Origin: Chrysochromulina tobinii
Lineage: Eukaryota > Haptophyta > Prymnesiales > Chrysochromulinaceae
DNA: 54,847 nucleotides
Reading direction: 5' to 3'
Assembly: GCA_001275005.1 (NCBI GenBank)
Contig: JWZX01002689.1
Coordinates: 1 to 54,847 of the forward strand
Shown: one piece after another, positions 18,583-28,863 of the stretch
Numbering within the stretch: the first letter of the stretch is position 1
Layout of the letters: each line of letters opens with the position of its first letter
Position numbers and translations under genes: made by a program
The notes under the pieces: model-generated
Database searches by the model: none
What the model was told of the DNA's origin: nothing
What the model saw: the letters and a program-made list of their open reading frames with translations, nothing else

Positions 18583-21500
18583 CTATTTCTTCTTCTCCGC
18601 GGACTTCGGACCGCCTGGTGTGGTCTTCTTCGCGCCCAGGGGGGACGGCTTCTTGTCGGCAGTCCTGCCGCCACTCGTCAAGGCGTACGCGCGGCGCTGA
18701 ATCCTCCGGAAGGCGCCGTTCAGCTCCCTGTAGTCCAGCTTGCCCGAGCCATCTGGATCGAGGGCCTTGAACACCTTAGCCGAGTCAGCCTTGCTGCAGC
18801 CGAAGCCCATGCCGTTGAGCGCCTGGTGGAACTCCGAGACGTCGATAAAGCCGCTCTTGTCGTCGTCCCACGAATTGAAGAGCTCGAGCACACGCCCCTT
18901 GGACTCTTTGAGAGCCTGCTGCAGCGCCCACTGGACGTACTCCGCCAGGTCCACTGTGCCGCCGCCGTCGAGGTCGAGCTGCACGAAGAGCTTCTTGAGC
19001 TCCTCGTCGGACATTTTAGCGGTCGGGTCGTGCTCCGGGTCGCGCATGCGTACCATGTTGCAGAACTCGTCGAACCCGAGCTCGGAGTTGCCGTCCTCAT
19101 CCGCCTTGAAAAAGTCATCCGCCTTGATCTGCATATTCGATCTGAAGTCGCCTCTCCCCTCGCCGAACACATCGCTCGCTTCAGCATTGGGGGATGTCGA
19201 GCGGGGTCTGTTTGTCGCCTTCTTGAGCCCCAGGACCCCCGCGATCCCCAAGCTTTTCTTGAGGAATTTGTTGAGCTCTTCAAAGTCAATTGAACCCGAC
19301 TTGTTGGGGTCGAACTCGTCGAAGGCCGCTTCGATGACCTGTCTGGGGAAGTCCGCTCCAATCTTCGCCCACGCGGCGATCCACTCCTTCCTATCAATCT
19401 CGCCGCTGCCATCGGCATCAAAGTCGCGGAACAAGTCCATGACGCGCATGTTTTTGGAGCTGAGGTATTCCTTGAGCGACTGAGCCACGGTCTTGGTCTT
19501 GTCGTAAGGGATCAGGGGGGGCGGCCCGGCGGCGGGCACCGCGACCGGCGGCGGGCGCGCCTGCGCGAGCTTGAGTTTGGCGCGCAGCTCGTCGATCTCC
19601 TTGAGGAGCTCCTTTTGGATGACGTGGCGCTCGCCCTCGAGCTGCGAGCGCTGCTCGTCGAGCATGCGCCGGAGCATCTTAGCCGCCGCCTCAGCGTCCT
19701 TGATCTGGCGAGCACTCAGCTCTTCCTTGGCGCGCCGTTCCGCCTCGAGAGCCGCCTCGGCCTCCTTGCGCAGCTGCTCGAGCTGCTGCCGCTCCGCGTG
19801 GGCGCCACGCAGCGCACGCGCGAGCTCCTCGGCCATGCGGTTCGCCGCCATGCGCATCTCGTCAAGCGAGGTCGAGAGCATTGCATTGCGCTCCTCGAGC
19901 TCATCGCGCTGCTGCAACACATTCGCCATGGCCGTGTTGTTGCGCGCGTCCTCGCTGGCGTACTTGGCCATCTCGGCCGCCTTGCGCCCCACTAGCGCCT
20001 CGAGCTCCCAATCCCGCTTCCAGGACGAGTACCCTGCGCTCAGCTTGGGCTTCGTCAGCCGCAGCGACGCGGCACGCAGCAGCCGCTGGCGCCGCGTCTT
20101 CTCGAACCACAAGTCGATCCAAGAGGTCATACCGCGCGACAGGTCCTTTGCCAGGATGCGCCGCGCCGCCATGCGCTGGAGGTGCGCAATGCGCTTCTCC
20201 TTCTCCTCCTCGCGCTGGCGCTGCATCTCGAGCTCAGCGGCCGCTTTGCCGCCGTCGAGCGCCGACAGCTTGTTGAGCAGCTCCTCCCGCTCGCGATTGA
20301 GTCGCACATTCTCCTTTTGGAACGCCGTCCGCTCCGCTAGCACCACTTCGAGCTGCTGTGTCTGGAAGCTCACGCTCGCCGCGAGGGCCGCCTGGCGGGC
20401 CGCGAGCCAGTCGCGGTTCCAGTGCGAGTACGCATTCGCGAGCTTCGGCTTCAAAAGCCGGCCCGCCGCGCTCTGCAACATGCGCCGCTTCTCGACGCGC
20501 TCTGTGTACAAGTCGTGCCACTGTGTCCAGCCGCGCAGCAGGCCCTGCTTTCCGAACCTGTGTGCGGCCATCGTCTTGATCTGCTCGATGCGACGCTCCT
20601 TCTCCTCCTCGAGCTTGCGCCGCAGCTCGGCTTCGCGCTCGGCCGCTCCGCCGTCCAAGGAGGAGAGTTTTTCGAGGAGCGTCTCGCGCTCGCGCTTCGC
20701 CGCCTCGAGCTTCTTCTCGTACTCGTTGCGTTGCCGGAGCAGCTCTTGCTGAGCATCCTCGAGCTTGAGAGTTTCGCGCCGCAGCCGCTGCTCGGCCGAG
20801 CCGCTCGCGCGTGCGATCACCGTCGCGCGCTCCCAGTCCACACGCCAACTCGAGTACGATGCAATCAGCTTGGGCTTGGTCAGGCGCGCGGCCGCCTTCT
20901 TGAGCAGGTTGCGCTGATACACCTTGTGGGACCACATCTCATGCCAAGCTGACCAGCCCATTGCAAGCTTCCCATTGATCATGCGCTTGAGCCCCAGCTG
21001 CGCCAGGTGCTGCACGCGCTTCTCCTTCTCCCTCTCGAGCTCCTCTTGGGCGAGGCGCATCATCTCGGCCTCCTGGCCGCGCCCGTCCAGCATCGCCGCA
21101 CGCGCGTCGGCGAGCTCCTTGTGTAGTTGGGCATTCGCCGCCTGAGCCGCCGCGAGCTCGTCGAATGCGTTCTTGAACTTGAGCTCCTTGCTGTGTGTGT
21201 TCGCGGCAGACATATGAGCCGTCCAGTCGTGCTTCCAGTGCGAGAGCGATTGGATGAGCTTGGGTTTGGTCAGGCGCGAAGCCGCCTTCTTGAGCAGGTT
21301 GCGCTGATACACCTTGTGGGACCACATCTCATGCCAAGCTGACCAGCCCGTTGCAAGCTTCCCATTGATCATGCGCTTGAGCCCCAGCTGCGCCAGGTGC
21401 TGCACACGCTTCTCCTTCTCCATCTCAAGCGCGCGCGCCATCTCAAGCTCCGCCGCCGCCAAGCCGCCATCGAGTTGGCTCAGCTTCTTGAGCAGCATAT

Positions 21501-24500
21501 CGCGCTCCTGAATGGCGGTTGTGAGCTTCTTCTCGAGCTCCTTCTTGACACGCTGCAGCTCCTGCTCGGCCTCGGCGGCCTCGTCGGTCGCCTTCTTGAG
21601 AAGTTGCTCGTGCGTGAGCTCCATATGCGCGTGGGCCTCCGCGTCCCACGAGTGCTTCCAATGGCCGTACGATCGGATGAGCTTGGGCTTGGTAAGCCGC
21701 AAAGCCGCCTTCTTGAGCAGGTTGCGCTGATACACCTTGTGAGACCACATCTCATGCCAAGCCGACCAGCCCATTGCAAGCTTCTGATTCATCATACGCT
21801 TGATGCCCTGCTGGCCCAGAGCTTGCACGCGCTTCTCCTTCTCACGCTCAAGCTCCTCTTGGGCGAGGCGCATCATCTCGGCTTCCTGGCCGCGCCCGTC
21901 CAGCATCGCCGCACGCGCGTCGTCTAGCTCCTTTTCAAGCTTTGCCACTTTGGCCTCGGCCGTGGCGCGCTTTGTCGCCTCGTCGTACAGCTTCTGCTCC
22001 TGCGTCAACGAGGAGAGCCGGCCAACCTCTGCCATGAAGTCGTGCTTCCATTGCTGGTACGACGCGACGAGCTTGGGCTTGGTCAGGCGCGCAGCCGCCT
22101 TCTTGAGCAGGTTGCGCTGGCGCACCACGTCTGACCACATCTCATGCCATGCTGACCAGCCCATCGCGAGCTTCTGGTTCATCATGCGTTTGAGCCCCTG
22201 CTGGCCGAGCGCTTGCACGCGCTTCTCCTTCTCACGCTCAAGCTCCTCCTCGGCAAGGCGCAAGAGCTCAGCTTCCTGGCCGCGGCCTGCGAGCATGGCC
22301 TTGCGCGCCTCGGCGAGCTCCTGAGTAAGCTGCTTAACCTGCGCAACAAGCGAGCCCTGCTTGGCAGCCTCCGCCTCGAGACGCGCTGCCGCCTGTGACG
22401 CAGCATCTGCTCCCATGAACTCCGTCCAGCCGTGCTTCCAGAGCGAGTACGACGCGATCAGCTTGGGCTTGGTCAGGCGCGCAGCCGCCTTCTTGAGCAG
22501 GTTGCGCTGATGCACCTTGTGGGACCACATATCATGCCATGCCGACCAGCCCATCGCGAGCTTCTGGTTCATCATGCGCTTGAGCCCCTGCTGGCCCAGA
22601 GCTTGCACGCGCTTCTCCTTCTCGGCCTCGAGCTTCTTCTGCATCTCTATCTCGGCCGCCGCCATGCCACCGTCGAGTGCCGTCAGGCGACGCAGCAGGT
22701 CATCGCGCTCCTTGTGTGCAACGGCAAGCTTCTTCTCGCTCTCGACATGCACGCGCTCCAGCTCCTTTTCCAACGCTGTGCGCCGCTCGGCGTGGTTCAT
22801 TTCGTGGCTGGCATACGTCTCGAGCTGCGCCGCGGCCATCGCTCGTTCCCAGTCGTGCTTCCAATGCGAGAGCGCTTGAATGAGCTTGGGCTTGGTCAGC
22901 CGCGCGCCCGCCTTCTTGAGCAGGTTGCGCTGGTGCACCTTGTGAGCCCACATCTCGTGCCATGCCGACCAGCCCATTGCGAGCTTCTGATTCATCATAC
23001 GCTTGATGCCCTGCTGGCCAAGCGCCTCGACGCGCTTCGCCTTCTCTTTCTCGAGCTCCTCCTCCTGCAGCCGCCTGAGCTCCGCCGTTCGCCCATCACC
23101 GTTGAGCATGGCCTTTCGGGCGTCCTCGAGCTCCTTGCGGAGCTTGCGAACCTCAGCCTCGGCAGCTGTGCGCGCTTTGAGCTCTTCAACGTACTTTTGC
23201 TCCACCGTCATCGCTGCTGCGGCACCAAGCGTTGCCGTCCAGTCGTGCTTCCAGTGCGAGAGCGCTTGAATGAGCTTGGGCTTCGTCAGCCGCGCGCCTG
23301 CCTTCTTGAGCAGGTTGCGCTGATGCACCTTGTGAGACCACATCTCATGCCATGCCGACCAGCCCATCGCGAGCTTCTGATTCATCATACGCTTGATGCC
23401 CTGCTGGCCCAGAGCTTGCACGCGCTTCTCCTTCTCCTTCTCCAACTCCTCTTCACGCAGCCGCTGCAGCTCCGCCTCGCGGCCGTTGCCGTTGAGCATT
23501 GCCGTGCGCGCTGCGTCGAGCTCGGTCCGCAACTTGAGCACCTCCTTGCGAAGGTCGGCGTTGATCGCATCGCGCTCGGCCGCTGCCTGGGCTGCCTTCT
23601 CGGCGAGCGTCATCTTCGCTGATGCCGCCTTGTCGGTAGCCCAGTCTTGTTTCCAGTGCGAGTACGTCTGAGTAAGCTTGGGCTTGGTCAGCCGCGCGCC
23701 TGCCTTCTTGAGCAGGTTGCGTTGGTGAACCTTGTGGGACCACATCTCATGCCACGCCGACCAGCCCATTGCGAGCTTCTGGTTCATCATGCGCTTGAGC
23801 CCCTGCTTGCCGAGCGCCTCGACACGCTTGAGCTTCTCCCTCTCAAGCTCCTCCTCGGCAAGACGCTTGAGCTCAGCCTCACGCCCGCCACCGGCGAGCA
23901 TGGCGGCCCGCGCCTCGGCGAGCTCCTTCTTCACCTTAGTCAGCTCGACAAGCACCTTGTCCATCTCGGCACTCTGGCTCGAAAGCTGACCCGCCTTCTC
24001 TGCCTGGGCTTCCTTCAACATCTCCATCTCCCAGTCCCGCTTCCATTGCTGGTACGACCCGATGAGCTTGGGCTTGGTCAGGCGCGCGCCTGCCTTCTTG
24101 AGCAGGTTGCGTTGGTGAACCTTGTGGGACCACATCTCATGCCATGCCGACCAGCCCATTGCAAGCTTCTGATTCATCATGCGCTTGATGCCCTGCTGGC
24201 CGAGCGCCTCGACGCGCTTCTCCTTCTCGGCCTCGAGCTGCCTCTGCATCTCCATCTCGGCTGCCGCCTTGCCGCCGTCGAGGGCGTAGATGCGCTTGAG
24301 GAGCTCGTCACGCTCCTTGACCAGGGCGGCGATCTTCTTGGCACTCTCAGCCTCCACGCGCTCGAGCTGCTGGCCCAGAGACTCGTAGCTCGAGGCCGCC
24401 GCTTTCTGCGCCTGTGCCTGCAGCGTCAGGTCAAAGTCTTTGAACCAATGAGAGTAGGCGGCCGAGAGCTTGGGCTTTGTGAGCCGGTTGGCGGCCTGGA

Positions 24501-27500
24501 GCAGAACGCCACGCTCATAACGCCTGGCCTCATACTTGTCAAACCATGTCGTCCACGCAGCGGTGAGTGCCTTGTTGAACACACGGGAGATTGCGCGCTT
24601 CTGCACGATCGCAATGCGCTCCTGCCTCTCCGACTCGAGCTTTTCGGCCAGCCGGCGCTGGATCTCGGCTTCGCGTCCGCCGCCGTTCATAGCGAGCTCG
24701 CGCGTGTGCTTGAGCTCGGCGGTGAGCTTCGCAAGCTTCTCCTCGAGCTCCTGACGAGCGAAGACCTCGGCCGCGAGCCTCTGTTCGCCCGTCATGGACA
24801 TCTGCGCCGCAGCGAAGCTCTCCCAGTCCTTCTTCCACTGCGAATAAGATTGGATGAGCTTGGGCTTGGTCAGCCGCGCGCCCGCCTTTTTAAGCAGGTT
24901 GCGCTGATGCACCTTGTGAGACCACATCTCATGCCAAGCCGACCAGCCCATTGCGAGCTTCTGGTTCATCATGCGCTTGATGCCCTGCTGGCCCAGAGCT
25001 TGCACGCGCTTCTCCTTCTCCCTCTCGAGCTCCTCTTGGGCGAGGCGCTGCAGCTCCGCCTCGCGGCCACTGCCGTTGAGCATTGCCTTTCGGGCGTCTT
25101 CGAGCTCCATGCGGAGCTTGGCATTCTCGGCTTCCGAAGCCTCGCGTGCCTTCAGCTCGGTGACATACTTCTCCTCGATAGTCATCGAGGCCAAAGCGGT
25201 CAACTCCGATTCCCAGTCCTTCTTCCACTGCGAATAAGATTGGATAAGCTTGGGCTTCGTCAGCCGCGCGCCTGCCTTCTTGAGCAGGTTGCGCTGATGC
25301 ACCTTGTGAGACCACATCTCGTGCCAAGCCGACCAGCCCATTGCAAGCTTCTGATTCATCATGCGCTTGATGCCCTGCTGGCCCAGAGCTTGCACGCGCT
25401 TCTCCTTCTCCTTCTCCAACTCCTCTTCACGCAGCCGCTGCAGCTCCGCCTCGCGGCCGTTGCCATCGAGCATTGCCGTGCGCGCCGCATCGAGCTCGGT
25501 CCGCAACTTGAGCACCTCCTTGCGAAGGTCGGCGTTGATCGCATCGCGCTCGGCCGCTGCCTGGGCTGCCTTCTCGTCGAGCGTCATCTTCGCTGATGCC
25601 GCCTTGTCGGTAGCCCAGTCTTGTTTCCAGTGCGAGTACGTCTGAGTAAGCTTGGGCTTGGTCAGCCGCGCGCCTGCCTTCTTGAGCAGGTTGCGTTGGT
25701 GAACCTTGTGAGACCACATCTCATGCCAAGCCGACCAGCCCATTGCAAGCTTCTGGTTCATCATACGCTTGAGCCCCTGCTTGCCGAGCGCCTCGACACG
25801 CTTGAGCTTCTCCCTCTCAAGCTCCTCCTCGGCAAGACGCTTGAGCTCAGCCTCACGCCCGCCACCGGCGAGCATGGCGGCCCGCGCCTCGGCGAGCTCC
25901 TTCGTGAGCTTGTCGACCTGCTTCGCCAGATCCGAGGCATCCTTGACACGCTCGGCCAGCTCCCGCTCGCGCTTCTGCTCCTTGGTCAGGAACTTGGAGG
26001 CCGCCTGGTCGGCGTCCCAGTCGCGCTTCCAGTGCCCATACGATTGGATGAGCTTGGGCTTGGTCAGGCGCGCAGCCGCCTTCTTGAGCAGGTTGCGCTG
26101 GCGCACCACGTCTGACCACATCTCGTGCCATGCCGACCAGCCCATCGCGAGCTTCTGGTTCATCATGCGCTTGAGCCCCTGCGAGCCCAGTGCCTCGACG
26201 CGCTTGAGCTTCTCCCTCTCAAGCTCCTCCTCGGCAAGGCGCTTGAGCTCAGCCTCACGGCTCGAGCCGTCGAGCGCAGCCTTGCGCAGGTCCGAGAGCT
26301 CCTTGCGCAGCCTGTTAAGCTCCATCTCCGTCTCGCGGTGGCGATGCTGCTCGTCGGCCAGCTGCTGGGCGACGGACATTGTCTTGAGCTTGGCGAATTC
26401 TGCGCCCCAGCTGGCGCGCCAGTGTCGGTACGATGCGACGAGCTTGGGCTTGGTCAGGCGCGCACCCGCCGCCTTGAGCATATTGAGTCGGCGCACCTTT
26501 TCGGCCCACATCGTGTGCCAGCCCGACCAGCCCATCGCGAGCTTCTGGTTCATCATGCGCTTGAGCCCCTGGCTGCCGAGCGCCTCGATCCGCTTCTCCT
26601 TCTCCTTCTCGAGCTGCTCCTGCGCCAGGCGCATGATCTCACGCTCGCGTCCCGTTCCCGTGAGCGCCGATTCGCGCGCGTGCTTGAGCTCCAGGCGTAA
26701 AGAGTCAAGCTCCTGCATGGCGATCTTGTACTTGGCCTGTTCCTCGGCGAGCAGCTGGTCCGTCGACTTGGCCGCCTGCACGAGCTTGTCCGCCGCCCAC
26801 AACTGCTTCCACTCTGAGTAGGACGCGATGAGCTTGGGCTTGGTCAGCCGAGCGCCCGCCTTCTTGAGCAGGTTGCGTTGGCGCACGTTTTCGAACCACA
26901 TCTCATGCCAGCCCGACCAGCCCATTGCAAGCTTCTGGTTCATCATGCGCTTGAGCCCCTGCTGGCCGAGCGCCTCGACGCGCTTCTCCTTTTCGGCCTC
27001 GAGCTGCTGATGCATGCGCTGCTCGGCATCAGCCCTACCGCCGTCCATTTGCTGAATCTGCGCAAGAGCTCGCTTGAGCTCCGACGCCAGATCGTCGAGC
27101 TCGCTCTGCAGGCGGCTCTCGTTGGCGCGCGCCTCGCTCAGCTGCTGGTTCTCGCTCTTGCCCAACTGTGCAAGGGAGGGCCACAGGCACGAGCGGATCA
27201 GAAGAAGGGCTAGCATCTCGCATGAATGTGCACGTTCACGACAGAAGGCACGGTATGGGTAGACACGGAGCGACGAGCGGACGGGGCGAGCGTGCTCCGA
27301 TTCGCACCTTGGCCTTCTCGCCGGCCGTCCATTCACGCCGCCAAGAGGCATACGCGGCCGACAGCTTTGGACGTGTGAGGCGGTTCGCTGCCGCCTTTAG
27401 CAGCCGGAGGCGGCGGCGCTTCTCGATCCACGGCTCGTGCCACGCGGACCAGCCCATGGCGAGCTTTTGGTTGAGCATGCGCTTGAGGCCGACCTTGCCA

Positions 27501-28863
27501 AGCTGCTCGATGCGCTTCTCCCTCTCGAGCTCGCGCGCGTGCTCCACCCCGGCCTTGGCCTCGTTCTCCAAGCGCGACGCATCGGTCAGGCGCATACGCC
27601 TCTCGTGCTCAAGGGCCGACTCGGAGCCGTCTCGCAGGCTGGCGATCACGTCTTGCAACTCGCGGACCTCATCGTGGTGCGCGCGACGCGCGTCCTTGAG
27701 CGCTTGGTCACTGGCGCCCTTGGCATGGCTCGTCTCTTCGAGCGCTCGCGAGGCGACTTCGAGCTTGAAAGACGTGTCGTCGAGCTGCTCCTTGAGAGAG
27801 CTGACTTCGCGCTGCAGCTGGCGGATGAGCGCATCCTTGGCGTCCATCTCTGCACGCATGCCCGCGGCCGCCGCGTCGGTGTCCGACTCGAGCTTACGCA
27901 GCTCGGTCTCGAGGGCGCGCCGCTGCTCCGCCATGGCGCGCGCCAGCTGCTTCTCGCCCTCCCTCCGTTCGGTGGCCACTTGATGCGCTTCCTCGCGGGC
28001 GCGCTGCACGTCGATGAGGGCTAGCTCTTCGCCTACGCGTGCGAGCTGACGCTCCTCGCGTTCCTTTGCGAGGCGGTCCTGGGCGGCACGCAGCACGGCG
28101 GCAGTCACGCTCAGCTCGTACTGCAGCTCCTCGGCTGCGGGCCGCCGCGCGCCCGGCGTCGTGAGCACCGTCGACAGGTGCGGAGCTGCCAGGAGATGCT
28201 CCCCGGGCGTGAGCACTCCATGATAGCCCTTGGGAGCAGGCGCAGAGCCCGGGCGGTACACCTGCATCGCGCCCGTGTAGGGTGATGGTCGGCCGCCGCT
28301 GCCGCGCATCACCGCCGCCGAGGTCGGCCGCCCCGGCGCATGCGGCAGCGTCGAGGCGAGTGGCTGCGGTGAGAAGTCGACGATGGTCATCGTCCCCTCG
28401 GGCGGCGTGACGTAGTTGCTGCCGGGCCGTGACTTCGGGCGGCCGCGGGTCGGGCGCGGGCCTGGCGTGGGCGACTCCTGCAGCACTTCGATGTTGTCTG
28501 AGACGATTGTGAACATGTCGGCTGGAGCGGCTGGAGCAGAAGGCTTGGGGCCTCCGCCGCTCGACCATGCGGTGGGCACAGGCTCGCGATGGCTCGAGGT
28601 CTCATAGCGCGAGCGTGGCGGTAAGACGACAACTGGCGCTCCGGCCGCCCTGCAGAGAAGAAGGAAGCGAGGGGCAATACACGTGAGAGCTTGTTGGTAA
28701 TGCGTGAGGCGCACGTGCAAGCGAGGCGGTGCGAGAGCGAATGATGACTCCTTTGCGGGACGGGCGGACGCCGGGCGCACATGTTGTTTGTCGACCCGTC
28801 AGCATTGTCGTAGCGCGCCACGTAGCTGCCGAACATCGATCCGCCGGTTGAACAGGAACCCAC
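18583..28863 (-). CDS. Giant Sfi1-like repeat / coiled-coil / EF-hand protein (three exons)
   Basis: Model: exons 28863-28781, 28649-27308 and 27165-18583. They total 10008 nt, divisible by three, giving about 3335 aa. Residues 1-200 are Pro/Ser/Gly-rich, then coiled coil. Nineteen units follow (about residues 415-2865). Each holds two Sfi1-type motifs (L-x3-[WY]-x2-W-[HK], for example KLAMGWSAWH and KLIQSYSQWK) with the two tryptophans 33 residues apart, joined by Glu/Lys-rich coiled coil. A Pro/Ala linker precedes six EF-hands (about 3050-3300), all with near-canonical loops (DADGSG, DPNKSG, DEDGNS, DLDGGG, DDDKSG, DPDGSG). A basic tail ends it. In yeast, Sfi1 repeats bind centrin on spindle-pole/basal-body fibres. 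A calcium-responsive contractile or basal-body fibre role is inferred. Exon joins are predicted by eye. Confidence 0.85.
23401..23929 (-). repeat. Near-identical long internal duplicate, copy A
   Basis: About 530 bp nearly identical to 25375-25903, at an offset of exactly 1974 bp. Only about a dozen differences are visible by eye, including in the coiled-coil spacers that differ strongly between other units. Confidence 0.85.
25375..25903 (-). repeat. Near-identical long internal duplicate, copy B
   Basis: Partner of 23401-23929. 1974 bp is a multiple of three (658 codons), so gain or loss of the intervening block keeps the frame. Confidence 0.85.
27166..27307 (-). other. Intron 2 of the giant gene (142 nt)
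   Basis: Donor AAG|GTGCGA after the first repeat unit and acceptor CCCTTGCACAG before LGKSENQQ. Its length, 142, explains why the repeat array appears in two different reading frames. A fortuitous ATG with a signal-like hydrophobic run lies inside it and is not taken as a start. Confidence 0.8.
28650..28780 (-). other. Intron 1 of the giant gene (131 nt)
   Basis: Donor AT|GTGCGC, acceptor TTCTTCTCTGCAG. Splicing joins exon 1 (MGSCSTGGSMFGSYVARYDN and on) in phase to AAGAPVVVLPPRS. The junction re-forms an ATG codon. Confidence 0.65.

Follow-up and report, generated by a model that had tools for sequence, protein, structure and literature searches.

Alpha-spectrin, alpha-actinin and spectraplakins such as ACF7 are built as a rod of helical repeats followed by C-terminal pairs of EF-hands, and a spectrin repeat measures about 106 residues. 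In Toxoplasma SFI1 (TgSFI1), peptides with F or W at position 4 of a hydrophobic triad (L-x3-[WF]-x2-W) bound centrin only with Ca2+, and proline is thought to reduce centrin affinity, although a proline-containing TgSFI1 peptide still bound (PMC9406199). Coiling of the haptonema takes a few milliseconds, is triggered by Ca2+ and is independent of motors, its mechanism being called unknown; Ca2+-binding microtubule-associated proteins have been proposed for it, none of them named in the available part of that source, which also reports a centrin dot at the distal tip (PMC6398456). The published genome of the haptophyte Chrysochromulina tobinii, a cell with a long haptonema that is shown coiled, measures 59 Mb at 63.4% GC (PMC4580454). 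This paper describes a gene on the minus strand of contig JWZX01002689.1, a stretch of 54,847 nucleotides that is referred to as the window, which encodes a giant chain of 19 units with paired tryptophan (Trp) motifs followed by its own six EF-hands. The fusion recurs in a large multigene family, members of which, as far as their sequences allow such a judgement, qualify as good candidate components of a motile or elastic fibre driven by calcium.

Gene Model, Selection and Chance Controls

An open frame without stop of 2922 codons (2922 amino acids (aa); window:18583-27351, minus strand) holds 18 of the 19 Trp units together with all six EF-hands, and the fusion of repeats and EF-hands in one chain, as proposed by the initial annotation, is therefore independent of splicing. 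A two-exon model (window 18583-28516, minus strand) that starts at the ATG at 28516 yields a protein of 3263 aa, whereas the initial annotation gave 3335 aa with a putative further 5' exon (28517-28863) and first intron. The model uses the splice join GT 27307/AG 27166, one of 15 GT-AG pairings that keep the frame open in the scanned stretch, and this acceptor was picked because it places units 1 and 2 exactly 130 residues apart, which is the commonest spacing. From about residue 38 onward the N-terminus of the model is supported by homologues, since residues 38-322 match P0009 (36% over 299 aa) and residues 61-315 match P0010 (38% over 269 aa); the N-terminal exon also matches P0003 (56% over 98 aa).

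The ratio of nonsynonymous to synonymous substitution rates (dN/dS) was below 1 in all 171 pairs of window units, with a median of 0.29, as expected under purifying selection. Selection on the sense frame and the presence of homologues on other contigs point to a real gene, and on the same two grounds an artefact of a GC-rich antisense frame was rejected. The protein contains 34 copies of a relaxed Sfi1-type motif, whereas 200 shuffles averaged 0.335 (maximum 3) and the 18,210 residues of the window's other open frames (at least 250 codons) contain none; the looser, plain triad was counted 40 times in the protein versus 11 times in the same 18,210-residue control. Five of these 11 are supplied by a single frame of 1073 aa located 15 kb away (window:42020-45241, minus strand), the C-terminal third of which contains these 5 triads, degenerate in form (e.g., LEMSRAFNSW) and Sfi1-like in appearance, without a relaxed or strict motif.

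The Trp Unit and the EF-Hands

The 19 units counted in the model each contain two Trp motifs, with W1 and W2 33 residues apart, exactly as had been read from the sequence initially. Most window units display L-A-x-G-W-x-x-W as W1 motif and R-L-x-K-P-K-L-x3-Y-x2-W as W2 motif, and one 200-residue block has a second copy, 99% identical at the protein level, at a distance of 658 residues. An extended unit profile was run over 119 sequences, comprising 118 proteins returned by homology searches (P0002-P0119) and the window model, and it detected 850 units in 117 of them, the proteins without a Trp unit by this profile being P0084 and P0085. P0084 (1990 aa) combines ABC-transporter (PF00005) and cyclic-nucleotide-binding (PF00027) domains with a similar EF-hand tail. 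The W1-W2 spacing equals 33 in 804 of the 820 measurable units of the pooled sequences. When F, L, W, V and I as well as Y and M were admitted at position 4, triad 1 was intact in 804, triad 2 in 725 and both in 709 of these 820 units. Among the positions conserved relative to W1 are two Arg (-24 and -13), one Gly (-4) and one Pro (+24). Consecutive units are separated by linkers of about 100 residues, and in the 130 units whose successor follows at exactly 130 residues, E, L, R and G are conserved at +73, +74, +78 and +84 from W1 (84, 92, 91 and 92%, respectively). Because the linker itself is conserved, the true repeat is one of about 130 residues and not the 33-residue motif. The idea that linker lengths in the window's subgroup, which often step by 4, 7 or 11 residues, reflect a continuous coiled coil was rejected, as the phase concentration at 3.6 residues was 0.22, and 0.06 without the modal 130, over 656 spacings of 110-165 residues from all sequences.

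The profile check of the C-terminus against EF-hand families, suggested in the initial annotation together with the claim of six near-canonical EF-hands, bore out that claim: Pfam PF00036 matched the window protein, designated P0001, at 9.1e-29 (97.3 bits versus a cut-off of 25.4) in six stretches, five loops are canonical by regular expression (regex), and a sixth (DEDGNSELGFDE) is near-canonical. The top PDB sequence match of the EF domain is a centrin (3qrx, 3.2e-12), closely followed by calmodulins, a CDPK and RIB57. The positions of all elements are listed in Table 1.

Table 1. Elements of the gene, with positions in the window and the basis of each assignment.
Element	Position	Strand	Basis
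Exon A, residues 1-403: Pro-rich N-terminus, charged coil, first Trp unit	27308..28516	-	Frame reading and homologue matches
Inferred intron, GT...AG	27166..27307	-	1 of 15 open pairings; yields 130-residue spacing of units 1 and 2
Exon B with units 2-19, the terminal coil, all six EF-hands and the stop codon	18583..27165	-	Open frame (2937 codons) with 18 units
Array of 19 Trp units, span including intron; unit spacing 130, 133, 134, 141 or 142 residues	20005..27526	-	
Long charged helix from last unit to EF-hands, with conserved L-x3-L-x3-R stretch	19555..20004	-	Alignment A4 (C-terminal region, without P0020); AlphaFold helix H57-212 of C-terminal piece
EF-hand loop 1, DADGSGEIDRKE	19384..19419	-	Pfam and regex
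EF-hand loop 2, DPNKSGSIDFEE	19276..19311	-	Pfam and regex
EF-hand loop 3, DEDGNSELGFDE, near-canonical	19066..19101	-	Pfam (6 stretches) and alignment
EF-hand loop 4, DLDGGGTVDLAE	18940..18975	-	Pfam and regex
EF-hand loop 5, DDDKSGFIDVSE	18832..18867	-	Pfam and regex
EF-hand loop 6, DPDGSGKLDYRE	18724..18759	-	Pfam and regex

A Multigene Family in a Haptophyte Host

Three protein searches were pooled to obtain the 118 proteins, one of which, P0002, nearly duplicates the window protein. In every search only the 8000 top candidates of a given length range were scored, and family counts are therefore lower bounds. At least 22 proteins were found with the whole of P0001 (20 of them with EF-hand Pfam domains), at least 65 rows with P0023, and at least 87 proteins with residues 1-840 of P0053, a query that excludes the EF-hands, 69 of the latter proteins carrying EF-hand domains. 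The first 22 homologues contain 8 to 30 units per protein. EF-hand loops (regex) follow the last unit in 97 of the 117 unit-bearing sequences and precede it in none of the 117.

A search of the organism's own genome assembly (53.15 Mb) gave unit matches on at least 26 contigs with 150 of 276 candidates scored, and on 11 contigs EF-hands lie beside the units in an open frame of equal length and strand (C1532, C182, C812, C1615, C2180, C1676, C2252, C1902, C1973, C1400, and C562). Two of these, C812 and C1615, may be two copies of one locus, because their matches are so alike, and C1396 and C971 may be additional contigs of this type, the EF-hand match on C1396 including one TGA. The layout described in the initial annotation was confirmed, and its view of one protein with this layout is widened to a large multigene family, with at least 11 contigs of the same genome carrying both parts. 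Relatives were also sought by pattern in viral contigs, with 187 matches, and in contigs of prokaryote genomes, with 20 matches, and tblastn confirmed none of these. No account of the family was found among the papers listed from the open-licence PMC literature, in agreement with the initial annotation, which knew of no described protein with this layout.

The one family member with a name is P0053, annotated as 'calmodulin-like 5' of Chrysochromulina tobinii with 1002 aa, which carries the same Trp unit and C-terminal EF-hands, and its name reflects only the latter. It matches contig C1400 at 96% (residues 397-1002), 99% (145-432), and 100% (1-145), so that the window's genome belongs to this species or to a very near relative. 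These three main blocks lie at G000:C1400:8198-12104, and further unit-like matches sit between them on the same strand, from which it appears that the annotated model probably misses part of the gene. The match of this protein to C1400, together with the coiled haptonema depicted for this species (PMC4580454), supports the initial assignment of the host to haptophytes of the kind with a coiling haptonema.

Other Genes in the Window

Three further frames of the window deserve mention. A 774-aa frame (window:47809-50133, minus strand) encodes both a diphthamide synthesis domain (PF01866, at residues 147-445) and, further along the chain, a GNAT acetyltransferase domain (PF00583, at residues 678-748). 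At window:459-2912 (plus strand) a His/Gly/Asp-rich repeat protein (HGHAHGSHEDGHAHGGGHEVADHEG) is encoded, with tandem repeats at 977-1986 and a hydrophobic stretch near its end; it could bind metal. Finally, a Gln/Gly/Tyr-rich low-complexity frame (window:13690-15648, plus strand) surrounds an FHA-looking stretch and has no Pfam match at 1e-3.

Proposed Function and Alternatives

We regard it as nearly an even call that the protein is an articulated rod, with Trp triads as docking points for EF-hand lobes and with its own EF-hands as calcium sensors, and with the haptonema or the flagellar roots, and there the microtubule-associated cytoskeleton, as the likeliest site. The giant alpha-helical rod would then be its own calcium-regulated scaffold. 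Its predicted anatomy is that of a jointed rod, in which a unit made of a long helix, a break at a proline, a helix of 22 residues, another break and a long helix with a conserved glycine is repeated 19 times, with a putative calcium-binding domain at one end. Each unit would present two Trp triads at the fixed 33-residue step, giving up to 38 docking sites over the 19 units, to EF-hand lobes of the centrin or calmodulin kind, which could belong to free centrins or to the EF-hands of a neighbouring copy. Docking of lobes at the triads would make the rod stiffer or bend it; the six C-terminal EF-hands would bind Ca2+ and switch rod docking or bundling, making the response Ca2+-dependent. A Ca2+ pulse would in this way alter how long, how curved or how cross-linked a filament of many copies is. 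A more specific version appears distinctly unlikely; it holds that the rods are Ca2+-binding, microtubule-associated actuators of the haptonema, forming a haptophyte-specific family, and that their change of curvature upon Ca2+ binding drives motor-independent coiling. Giant EF-hand rods in a haptophyte with a coiled haptonema do provide concrete candidate genes for coiling, and they would place scaffold and calcium sensor on one chain, as opposed to ciliate myonemes, in which scaffold and EF-hand proteins are described as separate (PMC12661445).

The likeness to Sfi1 was only partly upheld. With position 4 of the triad taken as in TgSFI1 plus Y and M, units with both Sfi1-type hydrophobic triads around Trp predominate, and the 33-residue step is that of Sfi1 within the units; between units this periodicity of about 33 residues is interrupted by the long linkers. 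The Ca2+-dependent centrin binding of TgSFI1 peptides with F or W in the triad also speaks for the likeness. Several observations weigh against the proposed docking rod. The strict Sfi1 motif A-x7-LL-x3-[FL]-x2-W-[KR] is absent from the protein and from each of 22 homologues, and the profile check of the units against the Sfi1 family, called for at the outset, gave no match of Pfam Sfi1 (PF08457) in P0001 at E<=1. With the same profile, the best score on the own genome was 14.2 bits on another contig (C2049), below the 22-bit cut-off, and none was obtained in 14 control genomes either, which leaves the sensitivity of this search unproven. The proline at +24, kept in 776 of 832 units, lies between both motifs and would count against centrin docking, and the Tyr that often occupies the middle of the triad in the second motif falls outside the TgSFI1 data as far as these are given in PMC9406199. 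The AlphaFold model of the unit (mean predicted local distance difference test score 80.0; 9 sequences, all window units) breaks the helix at LTKP, i.e., at the conserved proline between the motifs, and again at residues 79-81, whereas an unbroken helix belongs to the Sfi1 picture; the models are of limited confidence, with predicted template modelling scores of 0.25 (units) and 0.32 (C-terminal piece). Moreover, EF-hand loops are absent by regex in 20 of the 117 unit-bearing sequences, and no EF-hand or any other Pfam domain is present in 18 of the 87 proteins retrieved with P0053 residues 1-840; many of the 20 sequences stop within about 100 residues of their last unit, and many may be truncated. 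Finally, the conserved Arg, Gly and Pro and the conserved linker positions are more suggestive of a structural core than of docking sites left free, and searches for solved relatives of the unit gave no PDB match for a two-unit model in Foldseek at E<=10, one unconvincing match (occludin, E 0.15) by profile search, and one (E 0.61), also unconvincing, by consensus search. Because the strict consensus is absent, Pfam Sfi1 is unmatched and the predicted helix is broken at the conserved proline, the protein is not filed as a member of the Sfi1 family, and only the term 'Sfi1-like motif' is retained; it may nevertheless work like Sfi1.

The main rival explanation is a rod of the spectrin or spectraplakin kind. 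In a cross-linker resembling spectrin, alpha-actinin or the spectraplakins, the Trp residues would form the buried core of a self-associating helical rod repeat to which nothing docks, and the EF-hands would regulate attachment to microtubules or to a neighbour. This explanation is unlikely, since P0001 has neither a Pfam spectrin match at E<=1 nor a microtubule-binding GAR domain there, the Foldseek search with the two-unit model returned no PDB match, and the repeat is about 130 residues long instead of about 106. The spectrin repeat was not among the 9 Pfam families at E<=1 for P0001, nor among the 25 shown of 65 weak families for 24 unit pairs, and the weak Pfam matches of the units look like chance. 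The missing structural match does not prove that the fold is new. If the rods were ordinary structural linkers, they would still constitute a large protein family whose sole named member is called only 'calmodulin-like 5'.

The joint presence of both candidate partners on one chain in those 97 of the 117 unit-bearing sequences fits a self-assembling sensor, in which one molecule's Trp motifs are bound by the EF-hand domain of a second molecule to give a single-component, Ca2+-switched polymer. Precedents are Tcb2, reported to assemble alone with Ca2+ (PMC12661445), and the EF-hand and coiled-coil protein BILBO1, reported to form linear polymers that become helical when the canonical Ca2+ site is mutated (PMC4379179). 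We nevertheless consider such a polymer decidedly improbable: with three EF-hand pairs for 38 motifs, the majority of the motifs would stay unoccupied, and the confidence of the C-terminal model is too low to judge packing.

Compared with this polymer and with the docking rod that we favour, a scaffold of basal body, root or cell cortex without any part in haptonema movement receives the least credence and is thought very unlikely. Basal bodies and the spindle pole body are where Sfi1-type proteins reside in Tetrahymena and yeast, and 13 proteins with Sfi1 repeats are present in Tetrahymena (PMC5112337), so that a large family need not imply a special organelle. It speaks weakly against such a scaffold that the sole organism-named match of the three protein searches comes from a haptophyte, as most matches come without a name.

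Comparison with Known Systems

The Sfi1-repeat proteins (yeast Sfi1, human SFI1, TgSFI1, and Tetrahymena Sfr) share with the window family the L-x3-[FLWY]-x2-W triad and the 33-residue step between the motifs of a unit, and many of the units also have a small residue 16 positions ahead of the second Trp. Unlike them, the window family has its own EF-hands, units of about 130 residues with conserved linkers, and a proline with a predicted helix break between the motifs, and it lacks the strict consensus and the Pfam Sfi1 match. Alpha-spectrin, alpha-actinin and spectraplakins such as ACF7 have in common with the window protein a helical repeat rod that precedes C-terminal EF-hand pairs, from which the window protein is set apart by the lack of a spectrin-repeat match and by another repeat length and motif. 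Trypanosoma BILBO1 likewise combines EF-hands and a coiled coil on one cytoskeletal chain, the polymer form of which is altered by Ca2+, whereas its EF-hands precede the coil instead of following it and no Trp repeats are described in the available part of that report (PMC4379179). In layout, the window family can be likened to the centrin/spasmin scaffolds of contractile fibres in the ciliates Spirostomum and Paramecium, with which it shares a giant repeat scaffold, many candidate sites for EF-hand lobes and a setting in Ca2+-driven protist biology; in the ciliates, as far as described in PMC12661445, calcium is sensed by a small protein apart from the scaffold, whereas in the window family six EF-hands are placed on the scaffold itself.

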